A DNA stretch of 64,000 nt from Sipunculus nudus (Eukaryota > Annelida > Sipuncula > Golfingiida > Sipunculidae), in the NCBI GenBank assembly GCA_026874595.1, contig CM049308.1:12790001-12854000 (forward strand), written 5' to 3'. Under the pieces are notes generated by a model. The model searched no databases, was not told the DNA's origin, and saw nothing but the letters and a program-made list of their open reading frames with translations. Positions 2,928-14,900 of this stretch are shown here, piece after piece. Numbering within the stretch: the first letter of the stretch is position 1; the number at the start of each line of letters is the position of its first letter. The position numbers were made by a program, and so were the translations under genes.

Positions 2928-5900
2928 GTAAGTTGTTGTGCATAAAAAGGGCCCTCTATTGGTCCATTTTATAGCAGGCATCATATAATGCATGGTTCTC
3001 ACAGGTCTTCGAAACTGGGAAAAAGTCTTCAAAACTACAAACAAGTTCATGGCACTAAGCTGAACTTACTAAATTTTTAGCAAATGCAAAATGTACATAT
3101 TTCTATTTATAAACAGTTATTTGTAAGTGTATCAGTATTTCAACCATGTGACAGTTATAAGAGTTTAACCCTTTCCCGTTTGTTTTTGGTTTTCACAAAA
3201 CATCCCCCCTTACTGTTCAGATTAAATTAAGGTTTCTCACGCTTTGAATTTTGGCACATTGTACATTAATTCTATAAATGATGGATAACCTGATCAGTTT
3301 TTGGTGGATCCTTGTGAAATTTTAAACACCTTTTAAAAAGAAATACCAAGCAAGAGGTTTCAGGTTTTGGTTGCACCACCTGCATCAGCCTTTTTTGTAC
3401 GGGGGTAATTGTTCATCTGTACATTAACCCATAATTTCTCAGAAATAACAGGAGCTAACATCCCCGAATTTTTATGCAATAATCTGTCACATGTCAAATG
3501 TTGTGGGAATCACCATATTTTTTGTGCTATCTGCATTTACTTAGATTTTATAGGGAAAAAGCTGAAAAACCTTTACAGTGTTCAGACAGACCCACGAAAA
3601 CTCACTAATATATTATTTTGTTTTCGATATCCTTGAAAACCTTCTAAAAACATCGTATTTGTGCATGTACTCTCGAAAACCCTTGAATATCGGTACTTTT
3701 GTGTGAGTTGATATTGATGTCCTACTGGGGCGTGTGCTAAAACTACCCCTCGCACTTCGGCTTTTTTCTCGTGTTTTCTGTATAACAGCAGAAGAGATCT
3801 GGGAAATTACCGAATCCTTTTTTTGACTCGCACAGCTAATCTGCAGACGGTCTTTTGCCAAGGGTTACAGGGCACTGCCAAGCTTTATCTGTACAGGCCT
3901 ACTGGTCTCATGTACACACGATGCAGATTTCTGATTTGCTCCAGCTTCTTTGCATGAGTGAAGTTCTGGGCCTCCAATTTGTGTTTTCCCGCATCAAATC
4001 GCTAACAAACTGTGAAAGAACAATGTCAACTTGTTTTATCCGGGCTGTAGTAAAGATCATCCTGTACAAATTTTGATAAAATATAGCTATAGGCCCCGGC
4101 ATGTAATATAGATTTATAAACCTGGAAAAAATAAAAAATAGGCCTATTTGACACTTTGATTAACATTTTTATCATACAAAGTCTGTTTGAAAAAAATTGG
4201 GTGAAGCCTCATATGCATGTCCTGCACATGGCTTTGGTGGGAAACCTGTGCTGCAACATTAATTCGCTGATTCGGCCTGTCTTCTAACCGGTGTAACTGA
4301 CAGCACGTTATGAATACCCATGCACATTCCGGTTGCTCTGTCAACCGTCAAGTCCAGAATAAAAAAAAAATCTAGGCATTCTTAAGCCTCGTAAAGGGAG
4401 GACTGGCCAAGAGAATTACCTGGATATTTGAGCTGGAATAGAACCACAGTCTGGGCTAGCGCTGGCCATAGAAACTGGTTAGCCACTGTGGCTAATTAGG
4501 TGGGAAAATCAATAGCCACAGCCTACTTCGGTTAGCCACAGGAAACGTTTAACAAATTTAATCTTTTCAGCTGATTAATACATTGCATATTATAGATCAC
4601 AGCAACAGGCAGTAATTCCAAGACATTTAATCAGTAATAGGCAGTAATAGAAAAAAGTGATAAAAAATGATGAATAATAGTAATAGTAAGAGGATAATAA
4701 ATTAATTGCTATTACTTTTAATTACTCTTACTGGCCTATTGGTTTACTATGGTGTGACAACTAGTAGCAATGCTGTTTAGGCCTCGGTAGGGTCTTAATT
4801 TACAGATACTGACTGCTTACCTCCAATAGGGGCATAACCACTAAATTAATTAGATGGCCTATCAATCCTGATAATTAAGGGTGGATGGCCTGTTGCCATC
4901 CGTGCACGTAGCTGTTCAGTATTTAAGGAAGTGCTGTCTGAAACAATGGGCAGGTTCTTCTTTTGTACTAGTCAAATTAACCTACCTTGGATTGTAACAT
5001 ATGTGACTCAACTCACCTAGGTTTGGTAAAAGATGTTACTCAAAAGCACCAACATTGATTCTAGTGAACGAAAATTAACTTTGCTATGATTATTCAAAGG
5101 CTGGGCATGGGAATTTAGCCGGCTGCTCACAGGACAAGGTACATTACCCATTACACATTTCACCCACTGTAATGAATAAAGCATACTGGGTAACCATGTT
5201 TATTGAGTGAAGTATGTATAATTGTCCAGCAGTTATCCAAGATGTTGACACCAGTGATAACACAGGTTAATATACGACAATATATATCCTTTTGTTTAAA
5301 TGAAGAAGCCCTCCACTCCAGTCAAACTACAGGTCATTTAAAGTATTTATCTGAGCTAACATGAAAAATATACTCCTAGAATAAAGTTTGTTCTTCTTTT
5401 AGTATTTTTTATCTTTGTGCAGTCCGTAATACCAAAATAGGAAGAAATTTATACTAACAATAGCCATGGCACCTACAGCTTTTCATGACACCATTATAAT
5501 AATGGTTAGTTATAGTAGTAATAAGAAAGCAATAGTAATAGTACTTATAGTAATACACTCTGTTACTGAAAGCTGCAATAAGCCCTGTGTGTGATTAAAT
5601 GACGTTGAAGCAATAATTTCATGTTTAAACAATGGATCTATTTTTATTTTGGTCGTACCGACATTTCTTTTTCGGCACCATTTCTGTATGATCGCTCGAT
5701 CGGTGGCATCATTCATAATGCGCTCAGACGACGGCCATCCAGTGTCAGAACATGTGAAGAATTCTGTTATCTTTACTGACATTACTTCTTCCTCACAAAT
5801 CAGATTATATGTCCACACATGATGCTGTCTCTGACATGAAGCACAGGAACACGCGAAACGACCTTTAGCAGTTATAGCCGCCAAGGGTGACTATAAAATG

Positions 5901-8900
5901 TTAGATATAGCTGAGAGTACCTCCGTTAACGGTGCAAGACGTTTCGTCGCTGCAGGCGGCTATAGCAGTTATAGTTTAACTGAAGAACTTCTCCCTTCAA
6001 GGAAAGCATTTATTTCGCTGACTATAGCGGCGGGTGTTACAAGACCATAGGGCCACTGACGAAAATCTTTGATGGATGCCGGCTAATTACACTTTAATCA
6101 AGAAAACACATTACCCAGTACGCTTCATTTATTATGGTGTGTAAAATCAATCGCTGTTATATTGTCATATATTGATGCGTAAACCGTGTCACAACTTACA
6201 GATGATCAGCGAAATATACCGTCTTTCCAATGAGCGCTAAGCAATGTTCAACTACCCATCAATCAGAGCAGAGTTAGTTTTTGTTTTATAAGAATAAAGG
6301 GCATCTGTCAGAGAATTCTCAGAGAGCCGGAGAATTTTTATGGCTGTTCACGCAATGTTAGTTGAACAAAAACATCTCCAAATGTTCTCCTTGAATTCTT
6401 TGAGGATTTTCCCGACTTTTAGACAGACTCACATTAACGTGGTTTCTAGTTGATAAGTAAGTTGTAAACAAACACGATCATTGAATAATCGTTGGTATAT
6501 TCAAGAGAGTATTTCAACTAGATTTTCATGGGGATTTGTGTATTATTTTTAATCGCCACCGTGGCAATTTCTGCAAAAAGTTTCCTCACATTTTGGACAA
6601 ATTACTCGCATTTGGCGACATGGCGAGCGGCTAGCGCGAGCCCAGACAGTGAGCCTGCCTCATCGCTACCTATCTCTATAGGTGCTAATGTTTTCCTGTC
6701 TCATGTTATGTGATTTTGTATGCTTGATCCAGGGTGGTTATCCTTTTTTATGGACGGGCAATGGGATTAAACCTAAGGGTTCATGCTACCTCGCTAGGGC
6801 ACACAGTCTCAAGCTCTGTTTGCATACATACCATTCATACCTCATAACCCATACATGTCAAGACAAGACAATTCTTTATGGGAAAATAGTGGGTGGTCCT
6901 TCCGGAATTTTAATTCCGACATACAAAATTACAAATATGGATATGTATGCAAATATGGGGGGCTTGATTCCGCCCCCCTGTGAACCAATAAGTATAAATT
7001 ACAATTTTTTAGAGACAATTCTTATTGCTCAATTTATGTTTGTTACTGGTATTGAAAGTCCAACATGCTTAACTTTCAATCTGATGTTTGAACAAATGTA
7101 CAGTCCATTTTAAATGGCTGGTGCAGGGGTGGAGGAGGGATTAAATGCGTTGTTGTGTCCAGACGATTCTAATGATTCTGACGAACATGGCCTCTGTTGA
7201 GACTTTAGTAGGATGTACGAAGTTCGTGCTGCGGCTGCGGAGCGTGAAATAGTCCCTTCCACTGATTGGGCCATCGGGCCCCACCACCTGCATTGCTAAT
7301 TACAGCGCGAAGTTTGACATTGTTTTGGATACACTGTACGACGATCGATGTCATGCCCTACCATAAATGTCTTAATGACCTTTGTTCATTAATTATATTT
7401 ATGGACGGGCAATGGGATTAAACCTAAGGGTTCATGCTACCTCGCTAGGGCACACAGTCTCAAGCTCTGTTTGCATACATACCATTCATACCTCATAACC
7501 CATACATGTCAAGACAAGACAATTCTTTAATTCCGGAATTTTAATTCCGACATACAAAATTACAAATATGGATATGTATGCAAATATGGGGGGCTTGATT
7601 CCGCCACAGAATGTGGGGGCGTTACTCACAGGAAGTGGGGAACGGTCCCGCAATCTTCCCCCAATACTAGAAACTGTGTGCCCCCTCCCTTTTTTTTTTT
7701 TTTTTTTTTTAAATATTTCTTGCCAATTATAAAGTCCATGTGGGATCGCAATGTGTGGCGTGCATACCTGTATTATGGTAAAAAAGTCCATGTACCATTT
7801 AATGAATTGGGTGATATGCATGTTAACCATGATCTTGAAGATGATAAAGAGTCCCAGTAGGTTTTATAAACAATAAGGTAACATGCATGTTTTGAATGAG
7901 GAGACTCGCATCAGGCATCAGTAAAATTAAAATTGTTTGATATAAATAATCGTAATCCCCTTTTGATATACTCTTCATTGCAGAGCTATAACTGGAATAT
8001 AGAGGCCACTCTCAGGTCCTCCCTGTCCTAGTGTTGTTTGTACATTTTATTTTTTTTTATTTTTTTTTTAGAAATATGAAGGCCGCTCTCGGGTCCTCCC
8101 TATACTATATACTGTATTATGTCTAATAAATCAATATATATATGGAGACCGCTCTTGGGTCCTCTTTATACTAAATGCTGTATGTTAACATAGGCCAATA
8201 TATGGAGGCCGCTCTCAGGTCCTCCCTATCCTATACACTGTATTATGATTACCGGTGCATAGACCAATATATAGAGGCCACTCTCGGGTCCTCCCTATCC
8301 TATACACTGTATTATGATTACCGGTACATAGACCAATATATGGAGGCCACTCTCGGGTCCTCCCTATCCTATACACTGTATTATGATTACCGGTACATAG
8401 ACCAATATATGGAGGCCACTCTCGGGTCCTCCCTATGCTATACACTGTATTATGATTACCGGTACATAGACCAATATATGGAGGCCACCCTCGGGTCCTC
8501 CCTATCCTGTACACTGTATTATGATTACCGGTACATAGACCAATATATGGAGGCCACTCTCGGGTCCTCCCTATCCTATACACAGTATTATGATTATCGG
8601 TACATAGACCAATATATGGAGGCCACTCTCGGGTCCTCCCTATCCTTTACACTGTATTATGTTTACATTGACCAATATATATGGAGGCCGCTCTCGGGTC
8701 CTCCCTATCCTATACACTGTATTATGTTTACATAGACCAATATATCTATGGAGGATGCTCTCTGGTCCTCCCTATCCTATACACTATATTATGTTTACAT
8801 AGATCCATATTTATGGAGGCCACTCTCGGGTCCTCCCTACCCAATACGTACTGAAAGCATTTGCATAACCTGAATATGGAGGCCACTCTCAGCCTCCATA

Positions 8901-11900
8901 TACTGCTTTCTGTTACCATATTACTATGAAAAAGTAGGCCACTCTACTGTACACTGTGCAACCTTATGTATGAGTGGAATGCATTTGACCGCCACCTGCC
9001 CATGTCCCTAATCTGTGAATCAGATAGACCCCTGGCTGCTGCTTCGGTAGCAGCCCCTATCCTAAAGGAGTGCCCCTTGTATTTTCCCTCCAGACTTGCT
9101 ATTGATACGCAGGCCCTAAGTGCCGCATCAAACTTTGATCTAATGTAAGGGGTTCCGCCAGGATATGCAACAGGGGACCCGGCACAGTTCCGCGTACTTG
9201 TAAAAACTGAAGGATAGCTGTGACTGGACACAGCTTGTCTTTACGTTGTAACGTGACCCTTTCCATGGAACCTGCTGACAAATTTTTGGAATTTCTAATT
9301 AGCAGACTGATCTGTCCAACTTTGCCTTTATTACCTAAGCACCTAACATCCTCAAATTGTAATACCTTTGTTTTTGCCTTTTCAGATTGGGCTACCAACT
9401 CCCCTACGCGGAAAAAACCGTAGAAACATGTCAAATATAGCGCTTTTAGCAAGGTTTTGTCAAAGAAATTGTAGTTTACTAGGGAATCTACCAGTTTCTG
9501 CAAGATTTCTGATGTGATAGGGAGTCTAGTGTCCATTGTGGGGGTTTGTCTTTTTGCGGCCCAAACAAGTTTCTTAATGGCTTGAGATTCTGTAGGGTCT
9601 GGTAGGGACCGGATCTTGTGAACATATGAAACCGCAGAACAGTATGATAATAAAGAGCTGCCTGACATCCCTTTCGTGTAGAGGTTTGTTAAAAACAGAA
9701 AGATGGTCGCAGCACTGACTGGAGGTCGTGCTTTGTCTGCTAATCCTAGACTGTCGCAGAATTCCCTAAGCTTACGCCATACATTGGTGTAGGCCCCCTT
9801 GGTCGATGTTGCTAAGGACTTCTTTAGAAGCGATATGCCTGCTGATTTCAGCTCAGCGATGCGGGCAGTGGAGGATAATGTGTTGGAATAGCGGCCATCG
9901 TTGGTCCTTCTTTTCGGAACCGCTGCATCTGTTATAGAAGAAACTGCCTCCTGAGTGATGTCCTCTAGCAGGATGTCAACCTCGGAGTCCTCGTCTGTGT
10001 CCTCAGCCTCTGCTGGTTCCTCTCGATTTTTGGTTTTTGACGACTGTGGTTGTTTCAACCTATCGCGCTTGAGCTCCTGCATTTCCTTCTGGGGCGACGA
10101 TACCGACGACACCAACTGTGCCAGAAGAGCAGATGAGCTCTGTTCTTCAGTCCCACTATCTTGGTTCGCAGATCCACCTGTTATGCGTGTGGTAGATGTT
10201 GATGGCTGCTTGTCAGCCTGGTGCCGTCTTTTGCGGGGTTGTTGATCATCCTGCGAGTAACGTGCTGGTGTTTTTCGCACCCTTGCTCCCCTGCCAGACA
10301 TCCTGTAATGTTAAAATATCAGAGCAGCAGCTTGGTCAGACAGCTGTGTGCATAGAAGCCTGATTTTGTACCAGTAAGTGGATTACCTTCGAAATATTAC
10401 ATAACTGTAATATAATACCAGCCCTTCAGGCATTTTAAATATATTTAAACGCACACCAATATATTGCACATAGCTACTAGGACACGTATGTGTAGCCTCA
10501 CGGCATTTTTCTAGTGTTATGATTTTTTTTTTTTTTTTTTGATATATGCAATATGTACAAATAGCAGCACTGGCATGTCATTTTTTTTTTTTTTTTTTTT
10601 TTTTTTTGACACCCACCATAACAACTAGGACAAAAAACATGTAGCCCAACGGCATTTTTTTTTTTTTAGTGTTATGAATACAACTATAATACAATATGTA
10701 CATATAATAAAATTTTTTTTTTTTTTTTTTTTTTTAAATTAATGACCACCATAAAACACTAGGACAAAAACATGTAGCCCCACGGCATTTTTTCTAGTGT
10801 TATGAATACAATTATAATACAATATGAACATATATGAACTTTTTTTTTTTTTTTTTTTTAATTTCTACTATAAAACACTAGGACAAAAACATGTAGCCCC
10901 GTGGCCTTTTTTCTAGTGTTGTTTATTTATTTATTTATTTATTTATTTATTTTTTTTTTTTAATGTATATACAAATATGATACAACATGTGCAAGTAGCG
11001 CAACTGGCATTTTTTTTTTTTTTTTTTTTTAACAACTTCCACCACAACAACTAGGACATATGCATATGTAGCCCAACGGCCTTTTTTCTAGTGTCATGAC
11101 TTTTTGCTTTCCGATAATTTTTTACACCATCATTCTGGCCTTAGGACCCTAACGTGCAGCCCCACAGATTTTTATCTGCAGCCTCCGGCTTATCAAGGCT
11201 GACCCCTCAAGGCCCTAACCAGACAACCCCTCAGACTCTTGTACCAACACTTGGTACCGGTAGTATTAAAATGCACCCCATCGTCATCAAACAGGTGGGG
11301 GCCCCATTTGAAGCATTTCGTGTTATCCCAGAAAGTTGCAAAGTCCGTGTCACCCAGTACGGCCTCTAGGTATTGGTTCGTGATACGGACCTTGTTTAGG
11401 TAATCAACTGGGTAATCTCTCCCACAAAAAGGGGGATAGCGGGGCCCTAAGGAGGATACCAATATTCGTGCAACGTCATATTCATGGTGTAAAAGTTCTG
11501 CTAGTTGTAGTAGCCTGTGACCAACAACCTCGGGCCTCCCCTCAAAGTTTTTATCCGATAGGTCGTTTCCCCCGACCGCTAGAAGCACGACTTGTGATTT
11601 TAAACACTTTACCACCGGCATGTCGTACTGCCGTGTTGTGCGCACACAACGACCACCAATGCCGTGGATATGTATCTTAACGGCTGATTCATCAAAGCCA
11701 AAGTTAGGTTTTAGCGCCGTGGCGCTGGGAGGAAAAGCCATTATAGCCTGGTTCAACCTGCGGGTTTCGGAAGCGCCGAGAACCAACGCAGAGTTGTAAA
11801 CAAAAGCCGCCATTGCGGTTGACCCGGCAAGGTCAAAGTTCAAGACAAGTCCCACAATCCCCGCTAAACTCGTAAGTTAAGATGGATTTTATAAACCCCG

Positions 11901-14900
11901 ACTAGAAGCCAATTCGCTCGAAGGAATGGGTATTAATCTTAATAGATTGACGGAAAAAACTGAAACGGATTTTACCTTGACTCCGTGTCTACCCCAAACG
12001 ACCATCTCTCCGTCCGGTATTCAAATCCAGGTCAACCAGGTCAGGTGTCGTTGTACCTGCCGCCGCTTGTAAATGGTATGTCCGAAGGCGATGTATAGCA
12101 GGCTGTCGGCGAGTTATTATCCCCTCTTGCAAATCCAGGCGAAATTAAATGCGTTGTTGCGTCCAGACGATTCTAATGATTCTGACGAACATGGCCTCTG
12201 TTGAGACTTTAGTAGGATGTACGAAGTTCGTGCTGCGGCTGCGGAGCGTGAAATAGTCCCTTCCACTGATTGGGCCATCGGGCCCCACCACCTGCATTGC
12301 TAATTACAGCGCGAAGTTTGACATTGTTTTGGATACACTGTACGACGATCGATGTCATGCCCTACCATAAATGTCTTAATGACCTTTGTTCATTAATTAT
12401 ATAAATTAAGAGATTAATCTAATACTAACAAACTGCCTGCAGTTTGTGCTATGGTAAAAATTTCCGATAATATATCTGTCAGATGTACAGCGTGTCCAGT
12501 CCTGTGCACGCTGCATGTACGTGCGCAACAGTGTACCCTTTGATCTAGCCCTAGCTCCTGTGCTTTCTTACTGTATCTGTTACGCTGTGTGAGAGCCCTA
12601 GAAGATGATTTGAGAAAACTAGAGACTTTCAACATGACAATTAACAGGGTTTGCACAGACCCTTGAAAACCCTTAAATATATTATTTTGTGTTCAGTAAC
12701 CTCGAAAACCCTCAAAAAACATCAATTTTGTGCATGTAATATCAAAAACACTTTATCGGTACTTTTGTGACAATTGATATTCATGTTCTACTGTGGTTTG
12801 TGCTAAAAATACCACTCGCACTTCTGGTTTCCTTGTGTTTTTCGTATAACAGCACAAGATCTGGAAAATTACTGAATCCTTTTCATGACTCACACAGCAA
12901 ATCTGCGGTCGCTCTTTTCCCAAGTGTTACAGGGGACTGCCAGGCGTTGCCGTATAGGCCTGCTGGTTCTCGTGTGCTGATTTGCTCCAGCTTCTCTTGA
13001 TGAGTGAAGTTTGGTGCCTCCAATTTGTTTTTCCACATCAAGTTGCTAACGAACTGTGAAAGACAGTGTGAACTTGTTTTTATCCAGGCTGGCTTAATCC
13101 ATTATGTATAGATCATCCTGTGAAAATTTTGATAAAATATGGCTATAGGCCCCGGCATGTTTTATAGACTTATAAACCCAGTACAAATAAAAAATAGGCC
13201 TATGTGACACTAAGATCAGATTAAAATTTGTAACCATACAAAGTCTGTTTAAAAAAAATCGGGTGAAGCCTCCTCTGCGTGTCCTGCACATGGCCTTGGC
13301 GAGAAACCTGTGCTGAAACATACATTCACTGATTCAGCCCGTCCTTTAACCGGTGTAACTGACGGCACGTTGTGAATACCAATGCACATTCCTGTTGCTC
13401 TGTCAACCGTCAAGTCCAGAATAAAAAAAAAATCTAAGCTTTATTAAGCCTCGTAAAGGGAGGACTGGCCAAGAGAATTACCTGGATATTTGAGCTGAAA
13501 TAAATGCAGTTAACTGTATGGACAGTACTAAGAAACCAGATGAGTACAAGGTCACACTTGAAGTTGAAGGTCAGCCTATTTCATTTGTTAAAGATACAGC
13601 TGCATCAGCCACTGAGATTGGTGAGAGAACATACAATCAGTTCTTACAGAACATTCCTTGTGATGAAAGCAGAATTAAATTATGGAGTTATAGTGGTGAG
13701 CGGATTGAGACAATAGGTGATATCATGGTGTCAGTGACACATAAGAATCAGAAATAGAAATTACCACTGGTCATAGTTAAAGGGTGACAAGGTATCTCTC
13801 TTGGGTCATGATTGGATGAATAAAATTCAGCTAGACTGGAAACAGATATTTGCCATGAATAATTGTAAGAAAGATAGTCAGTTGCAGGAGTTATTAGCAA
13901 CCCATCGGCACCTATTTGAAGGCAATGGACTGGTTAAAGAATTTAAAGCAGAGATACATTTGAAAGAAAATGCTATACCAGTATTCCTTAAACCACGACC
14001 TGTGCCATATGCTTTGAGAGAAAAAGTTGCAGATGAACTTGATAGACTCGAGCAATCAGGAATTATCAGAAAAGTTGGAATGAGCCAGTGGGCAGCTCCG
14101 CTTGTTGTTGTACCTAAGTCTGACCATAGTGTTAGGCTCCGTGGGGATTTTAAAGTGACAATTAACATAGCCATAGGGGATCAGCCATACCCACTGCCAA
14201 CAGCAGAAGATATTTTTGCCACTTCAGCCGGAGGTGACAAGTTCAGTGTACTTGATCTTAGTCATGCATATGCGCAGCTTGAAGTCAAGGAGGAATCATG
14301 GAAACTCCTAACTGTCAATACTCACAAGTGACTTTATGAGTACAAGAGACTTGCATACGGTGTGAAAACTGCACCGCATATTTTCCAGAAAGTTATGGAT
14401 CAAGTACTTGTTGGGATACCAAAAGTAGCTTGCTACCTAGATGGCATCTTGATTGCAGCTAAATCTGATGCAGAGCACCTGCAGACCTTAAATGTGGTTC
14501 TCCAGAGGTTAGCACAGCATGGAGTTAAATTAAAGAAGGCCAAGTCTCAATTTATGGCCTCCAGTGTTGAGTACTTGGGACACAAAATAGATTCAAAAGG
14601 CTTGCACCCTACACAGAAGAAAATCGAGGCAATATTGAATGCTAAACCACCTGAGAATAAATCTGAGCTGAAATCTCTGTTGGGTCTCATCAGTTATTAT
14701 GGGAGTTTCTGGAAGGGCTTTCAACTAAGTTAGAGCCACTGCATAGACTCTTGCGCTCAGAGAATACATGGAAATGGTCTACAGAATGTGACCAGGCCCT
14801 ACAAGCTGTAATGGATGAGCTCACAAGCTATAAGGTACTTGTTCATTATGATCCAAGCAAACAGTTAAAGTTTAGCTACAGAATACAGATGCCTCAGCAT

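Follow-up and report, generated by a model that had tools for sequence, protein, structure and literature searches.

A tyrosine recombinase element without reverse transcriptase in Sipunculus nudus, a probable spliced retrocopy of a Ngaro-like retrotransposon

How can an element that bears the split direct repeats of a retrotransposon come to lack a reverse transcriptase (RT)? The question is raised by a copy on the minus strand, at positions 6747-12402, of a 64,000-nt stretch of the Sipunculus nudus genome (C3:12790001-12854000; 1.43 Gb in 153 contigs). This stretch is referred to below as the window, and positions without a contig name are window positions. The element has the order A1-SGNH-[Gag-YR]-B1-A2-B2, where YR is a tyrosine recombinase. 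Comparison with a sister copy on contig C4 showed that a stretch of 2,242 nt is missing from it, the ends of which read CAG/GTGAGG (donor) and TTTCAG/A (acceptor), the slash marking the predicted boundary. The window element is probably a spliced retrocopy of a Ngaro-like YR retrotransposon, belonging to a lineage that would express its recombinase as a spliced Gag-YR protein and whose spliced RNAs would sometimes be reinserted as copies without RT.

The element and the stretch it lacks

A preliminary description of this locus had claimed an RT-less split-repeat element with an SGNH hydrolase and a YR, and the element proved real on the near identity of A1 and A2 and on the Pfam match of the SGNH open reading frame (ORF). 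Its features are as follows.

12144-12402, minus strand: A1, the left split direct repeat, 1 mismatch in 259 against A2
11193-11855, minus strand: SGNH hydrolase ORF, Pfam Lipase_GDSL_2, E 3.7e-9
10530-11110, minus strand: A-rich tandem repeats (families D8 and D9) between SGNH and Gag, spaced about 120-175 bp
9929-10301, minus strand: predicted exon 1, Gag N-terminus and linker, 3' end ...TCTATAACAG, 96% amino acid identity over 124 aa with Gag of the C4 copy
9928-9929, minus strand: junction, without the 2,242 nt with GT-AG ends found in the C4 copy (C4:84201816-84204057)
8944-9928, minus strand: predicted exon 2, YR, split by a frameshift over ORFs 9099-10301 and 8944-9231
8119-8863, minus strand: 69-bp minisatellite (D1-D3) in the interval between YR and B1, with matching repeats in the C4 copy
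7398-7605, minus strand: B1, by pairwise comparison with B2
7140-7398, minus strand: A2, 259 nt, 1 mismatch against A1
6747-6974, minus strand: B2, the right element end, by pairwise comparison with B1

B1 and B2 are identical in 207 of 228 columns, a 20-nt gap and one adjacent mismatch being the sole differences. The order A1...B1-A2-B2 was recovered as first described, with the correction that 165 bp lie between A2 and B2. The frame taken for a YR ORF (9099-10301, 400 aa) does contain YR; as a whole, however, it is the Gag N-terminus (10301-9929) fused in frame to YR (from 9928), and late in the YR part a frameshift moves the reading into ORF 8944-9231. The first internal ATG of the SGNH ORF is at about 11813. 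No RT or RNase H frame was seen from A1 to B2 in the list of ORFs of at least 80 aa, in agreement with the preliminary description, and the stretch that holds them in the C4 copy is missing.

With the A repeat as query, the genome yielded a copy at C4:84194749-84206525 as well as a repeat at C1:47581121. Most of the window element can be aligned to the C4 copy (pieces 92-97% identical; A repeat 97-100%, SGNH ORF 97%), but the latter has two extra blocks, one of which, the 2,242 nt between the Gag N-terminus and YR, contains the rest of Gag and RT/RNase H. Since the window copy lacks exactly this stretch, its Gag N-terminus is fused in frame to YR. The preliminary description had held that RT between SGNH and YR in a related copy would mark the window element as a deletion derivative, and the C4 copy does have RT in that place. 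At the junction the window reads ...TCTATAACAG/ATGCAGCGG... and the C4 copy ...TCTATAACAG/GTGAGG ... GCGGTTTCAG/ATGCAGCGG..., and within the gag-RT-YR stretch of the C4 copy the donor ranked first of 151 GT and the acceptor eighth of 250 AG when scored with approximate splice-site weights. The other block, 4.6 kb in the interval from SGNH to gag (C4:84196555-84201153), was rejected as a second intron, as it has the look of an unrelated nested repeat. Dispersed repeats similar to it recur in the window, mainly at about 44-49 kb, and the block has a GACG run near its end. The C1 repeat belongs to a solo A-B unit of the same family with no internal part (C1:47581117-47581782; L011/L012), the outcome expected from recombination between A1 and A2.

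When the genome was searched with a 241-nt query spanning the junction (12 matches, all 12 scored), the window was the sole copy, among seven of the family, to match throughout. Gag-side matches ended at query position 135 (5/5), YR-side matches began at 130-132 (6/6), and in the copies at C4:84.2, C1:65.5, C1:110.6 and C5:80.0 Mb the two halves are separated by 2.2-2.25 kb, which was read as Gag/RT/RNase H in the C4 copy alone of these four. Of the other six family copies that were read, five keep the donor CAG/GTGAGG, and in that at C5:80 Mb it is altered.

Two further Gag-YR copies show the same kind of loss. When the whole genome was searched with the fusion protein and 104 of the 476 candidates were scored, a second Gag-YR frame came to light at C1:11.64 Mb (L027), open for 447 aa and from a family whose YR is about 38% identical. 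At C3:12.6 Mb an unspliced relative of L027 (gag 94%, YR 90%) reads CATCTG/GTGAGT ... CGTTCCCAG/GTGTCC where L027 reads CATTTG/GTGTCC, so that the intron ends are CTG/GTGAGT and TTCCCAG/G. The third copy, at C3:33.67 Mb (L057), reads CTCCTAG/GTGGAGGCAGCG, and the corresponding unspliced relative, found at C8:5.06 Mb (95% in gag over 276 aa, 92% in YR over 37 aa), reads CTCCTAG/GTGAGT ... CTCGCTTGCAG/GTGGAGGCAGCG, with ends TAG/GTGAGT and CTTGCAG/G. The window copy, L027 and L057 represent three exact GT-AG losses at homologous positions in three lineages. Other candidates were rejected: the loss of SGNH from L027 has no GT at the break, the copy at C4:20.6 Mb is broken at about 13621 and 15017 (C4-copy positions) against sites at 12816 and 15057, and that at C1:45.85 Mb is an ordinary deletion from SGNH into RNase H.

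Predicted splice sites across lineages and a proposed route

Both sides of the predicted intron were examined in 15 lineages, hand-picked from the match lists rather than clustered on a tree; the sites of seven (lineages 4, 5, 7, 9, 10, 11 and 12) were read by eye, and an interrupted gag frame was represented by its open stretch around the donor. In 14 of the 15, the variable Gag linker has a phase-1 donor and the RNase H end a phase-1 acceptor, and the two jointly open the YR frame. In all of 12 lineages compared, the donor falls at an isolated [TSA]G motif in a linker that is otherwise hardly alignable. The invariant donor Gly is encoded by GGT in 12/12, a codon used for 0.36 of the other Gly residues of these frames, and the next codon specifies Glu in 11/12, as GAG in 11/11 against 0.54 elsewhere; nominal probabilities here take no account of shared ancestry. 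The donor has the form G/GTGAG in 11 of these lineages and G/GTAAC in one, and the two lineages that bring the number to 14 have G/GTAGG (C9:64 Mb) and G/GTGAG (C8:5.06 Mb). In these lineages the acceptor at the RNase H end is a CAG that follows LSR[FLS], or some variant of that motif, and its phase with respect to YR is 1. A stop interrupts the YR frame 6-34 codons upstream of the acceptor, with no in-frame Met between the two, in all 18 usable copies; these 18, some near-identical, come from 23 copies, of which two had no acceptor by pattern and three (C3:47, C1:11.94 and C7:48) were mispicked.

The fifteenth lineage (L056, C9:75145401-75147900, or C9:75.145 Mb), in which a single frame of 780 aa encodes RT, RNase H and YR, offers a natural contrast to those with split frames. 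Its best Gag donors score 7.07 and 6.87, as compared with 10.5-12.5 in eleven GTGAG lineages and 7.54 and 8.58 for the two non-GTGAG donors. As a single lineage it is a weak control.

These data suggest the following route. A parent element of the layout A1-SGNH-gag-RT/RNase H-YR-B1-A2-B2 would produce Gag and RT from its unspliced RNA. Splicing from the donor in the Gag linker to the acceptor at the last RNase H codons would remove most of Gag and all of RT/RNase H, and the spliced form would be translated into a protein with the Gag N-terminus joined to YR, which would provide a translation route for an otherwise start-less YR frame. The spliced layout keeps the SGNH ORF upstream of Gag. Because the spliced RNA would also keep the A and B ends, it could be reverse transcribed and circularised by the proteins of a full copy, and the circle could then be integrated by YR; a circle intermediate integrated by YR is the standard model for the order DIRS. 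This is most likely how the window copy arose: a spliced RNA was its source, and RT acting in trans, presumably that of a full copy, made the DNA that was integrated as an RT-less element.

On the strength of the conserved sites, Gag-YR splicing is likely a general route of recombinase expression in these elements. We lean, if only by a little, towards a broader proposal, in which the Ngaro-like elements of S. nudus, and perhaps YR retrotransposons at large wherever the YR frame has no start, would make their recombinase only as spliced Gag-YR. The recombinase would be brought into the particle or the nucleus by the Gag N-terminus, and each element, its spliced RNA keeping all cis signals, would seed RT-less satellites of its own that depend on help in trans.

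Competing explanations

Several observations weigh against splicing as the origin of the window copy and as a general expression route. The donor GT is lost in the C5:80 Mb copy, and two of 14 donors are not GTGAG, namely GTAACC at C4:20.68 Mb, which is only the second best there, and GTAGGT at C9:64 Mb. A Met follows soon after the acceptor at C10:19.40 (codon 8) and C10:19.30 (codon 18). In the single-frame lineage at C9:75.145 Mb, the site scoring 6.87 is a weak phase-1 CAG/GTAACA, and it too sits at a TGN motif of this kind in Gag, which shows that the motif also occurs where no splice would be required. Selection on the protein could account for the conservation of the [TSA]G(E) and LSRxQ motifs. 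The three junctions share 3 (CAG), 4 (GGTG) and 5 (AGGTG) nt, which makes microhomology or RT template switching possible case by case. Among the three fusion copies, intact split repeats were demonstrated on the window copy alone, and L027 has lost SGNH through a non-splice deletion and stops before B1. Finally, YR is frameshifted in the window copy and, at a different place, in the C4 copy.

The explanation that best survives beside the proposed route grants that splicing is real and regards it as a side reaction, with YR normally made by frameshifting, re-initiation or a start of its own and the fusions being dead ends like human SpIREs. It draws on the overlap, in another frame, of YR with the RNase H end, on the lineage with the single 780-aa frame, and on published elements. 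In the available parts of the sources, the YR ORF of fungal Ngaro elements is in frame with RT-RNase H or frameshifted (PMC3783388), the ORFs of Xenopus Ngaro elements all overlap (PMC9210276), such overlaps are usually absent in Ngaro (PMC3266345), and SpIREs are termed dead-ends (PMC5860796). We nevertheless consider a side reaction unlikely in view of the phase-matched sites in 14 of 15 lineages and the invariant GGT codon in a variable linker.

Loss of the RT region by ordinary deletion, through microhomology-mediated repair or through template switching by RT during cDNA synthesis, is quite improbable. The short homology at each junction fits it, and such deletions are known in the group, at C4:20.6 Mb and C1:45.85 Mb. 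On the other hand, three lineages are broken at the same homologous positions, with exact GT-AG ends and in phase, and among 400,000 simulated random deletions, none shorter than 1 kb or with less than 3 nt of homology at the junction, 11,022 had GT-AG ends and 54 had sites as good as those of the window case. The positions and phases of the three junctions, taken together, make microhomology unlikely, and a spliced RNA fits better than random deletion given the exact GT-AG ends and their recurrence at the homologous place in two lineages. The earlier readings, a split-repeat YR retrotransposon and an internal deletion mobilised in trans, were close, but the part lost has the exact ends of an intron.

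The other suggestion made at the outset was a lineage that needs no more than recombinase and hydrolase to move. Taken as a distinct autonomous lineage that would move as DNA and resemble Cryptons apart from its split repeats, it is very hard to sustain: the split repeats are indeed intact and A1 and A2 almost identical, but the window holds the one joined copy among seven, its ORF is a Gag fusion with exact intron loss, and the C4 sister carries RT. An assembly or cDNA artefact is hardly credible, for although cDNA contamination can yield intron-free copies, this one lies with flanking DNA within a contig of tens of megabases, differs from the C4 copy (pieces 92-97% identical), and has similar fusions at two other places.

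Encoded proteins and known systems

The assignment of YR comes from relatives. A Pfam search of the Gag-YR ORF of the window gave no match, whereas the relatives L022 and L027 match Phage_integrase at E 1.3e-4 and 1.7e-4, both below the curated cut-off, and the fold predicted for a homologue (P0001) is Cre-like (mean pLDDT 75; TM about 0.56, best Foldseek E 8.1e-11). L022, from a related lineage, also matches RVT_1 (E 1.5e-15); a Pfam scan of its pol frame, the one frame scanned, showed no methyltransferase domain. A homology search in 5.8 billion proteins returned three matches without context. The A1-int-B1-A2-B2 repeats that define Ngaro-like elements are present in the window, with matching repeats in the C4 copy, and the C3:12.6 Mb copy also has split repeats (A1/A2 97%, B1/B2 99.6%). 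RT and RNase H, absent from the window copy, were read from the frames of the C4 sister, and the window copy is a non-autonomous derivative, not a full Ngaro.

At 55 of 91 YR places an SGNH ORF of the same strand is located 5' of YR at a distance of no more than 12 kb, and at 43 of these the distance is 2.7-4.5 kb (91 of 95 YR rows, second pieces and one gag-only row being omitted, and 77 of 150 SGNH rows). Two distances fall under 2.6 kb: the 1.26 kb of the window, and that at C1:45.85 Mb, where the deletion is an ordinary one.

Around the element, direct repeats at 4050-4440 and 13106-13502 (87-90% identical, 9.06 kb apart) possibly belong to an older element or to a duplication that hosts the insertion. 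Interrupted RT frames adjoin it at 13801-14733 on the plus strand, the second matching RVT_1 (E 9.8e-17); we take them to be perhaps part of a Gypsy-type element.

The nearest described elements are the Xenopus Ngaro-like DIRS-53_XT and DIRS-54_XT (PMC9210276), which, as far as the available part of that account goes, share the split direct repeats A1...B1-A2-B2, Gag, RT/RNase H, YR and an SGNH ORF. They differ in that SGNH follows YR in amphibians and stands 5' of gag here, and in that YR here is reachable from Gag by a phase-1 splice; "splic" and "intron" occur nowhere in the whole text of PMC9210276. Genome-wide, SGNH ORFs in S. nudus sit 5' of gag/YR, the side opposite to that in the amphibian elements. 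Within the open-licence literature, a limited basis for absence, the available parts of the sources, including PMC6681497, PMC4157794, PMC3212892, PMC3266345, PMC3783388 and PMC8547959, gave no description of splicing in DIRS-order elements. How a start-less YR frame overlapping the RNase H end is translated is likewise not settled in those parts of the literature examined, and the three intron-removed copies together with the phase-matched sites in 14 of 15 lineages offer a concrete candidate answer. Without invoking a new class of transposon, a spliced retrocopy would also account for an RT-less YR copy with intact termini. It suggests, too, that the pathway by which the element itself replicates and integrates is open in trans to a spliced RNA.

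Retroviral env is expressed from spliced RNA. Spliced subgenomic RNAs are established for the long terminal repeat elements BARE (PMC3735527) and EVADE (PMC8892269), and these systems, from what the available text describes, have in common with the one proposed here that one RNA is spliced to favour one protein; the product there is Gag (Env in the retroviral case), whereas here it would be a Gag-recombinase fusion. Crypton DNA transposons share a YR without RT but, in the portion of PMC3212892 available, have short terminal direct repeats and no Gag origin, unlike the window element with its long split repeats and RT-bearing sister copy. The closest parallel in mechanism is with SpIREs, spliced integrated LINE-1 copies (PMC5860796, available in part), in which element RNA is spliced, reverse transcribed and reinserted without the intron, and the exact GT-AG loss against an unspliced relative was found here in three copies. 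The element class is another one, however, the predicted intron here removes RT itself, its sites are conserved and in frame, and the window copy retains the element's own terminal repeats.

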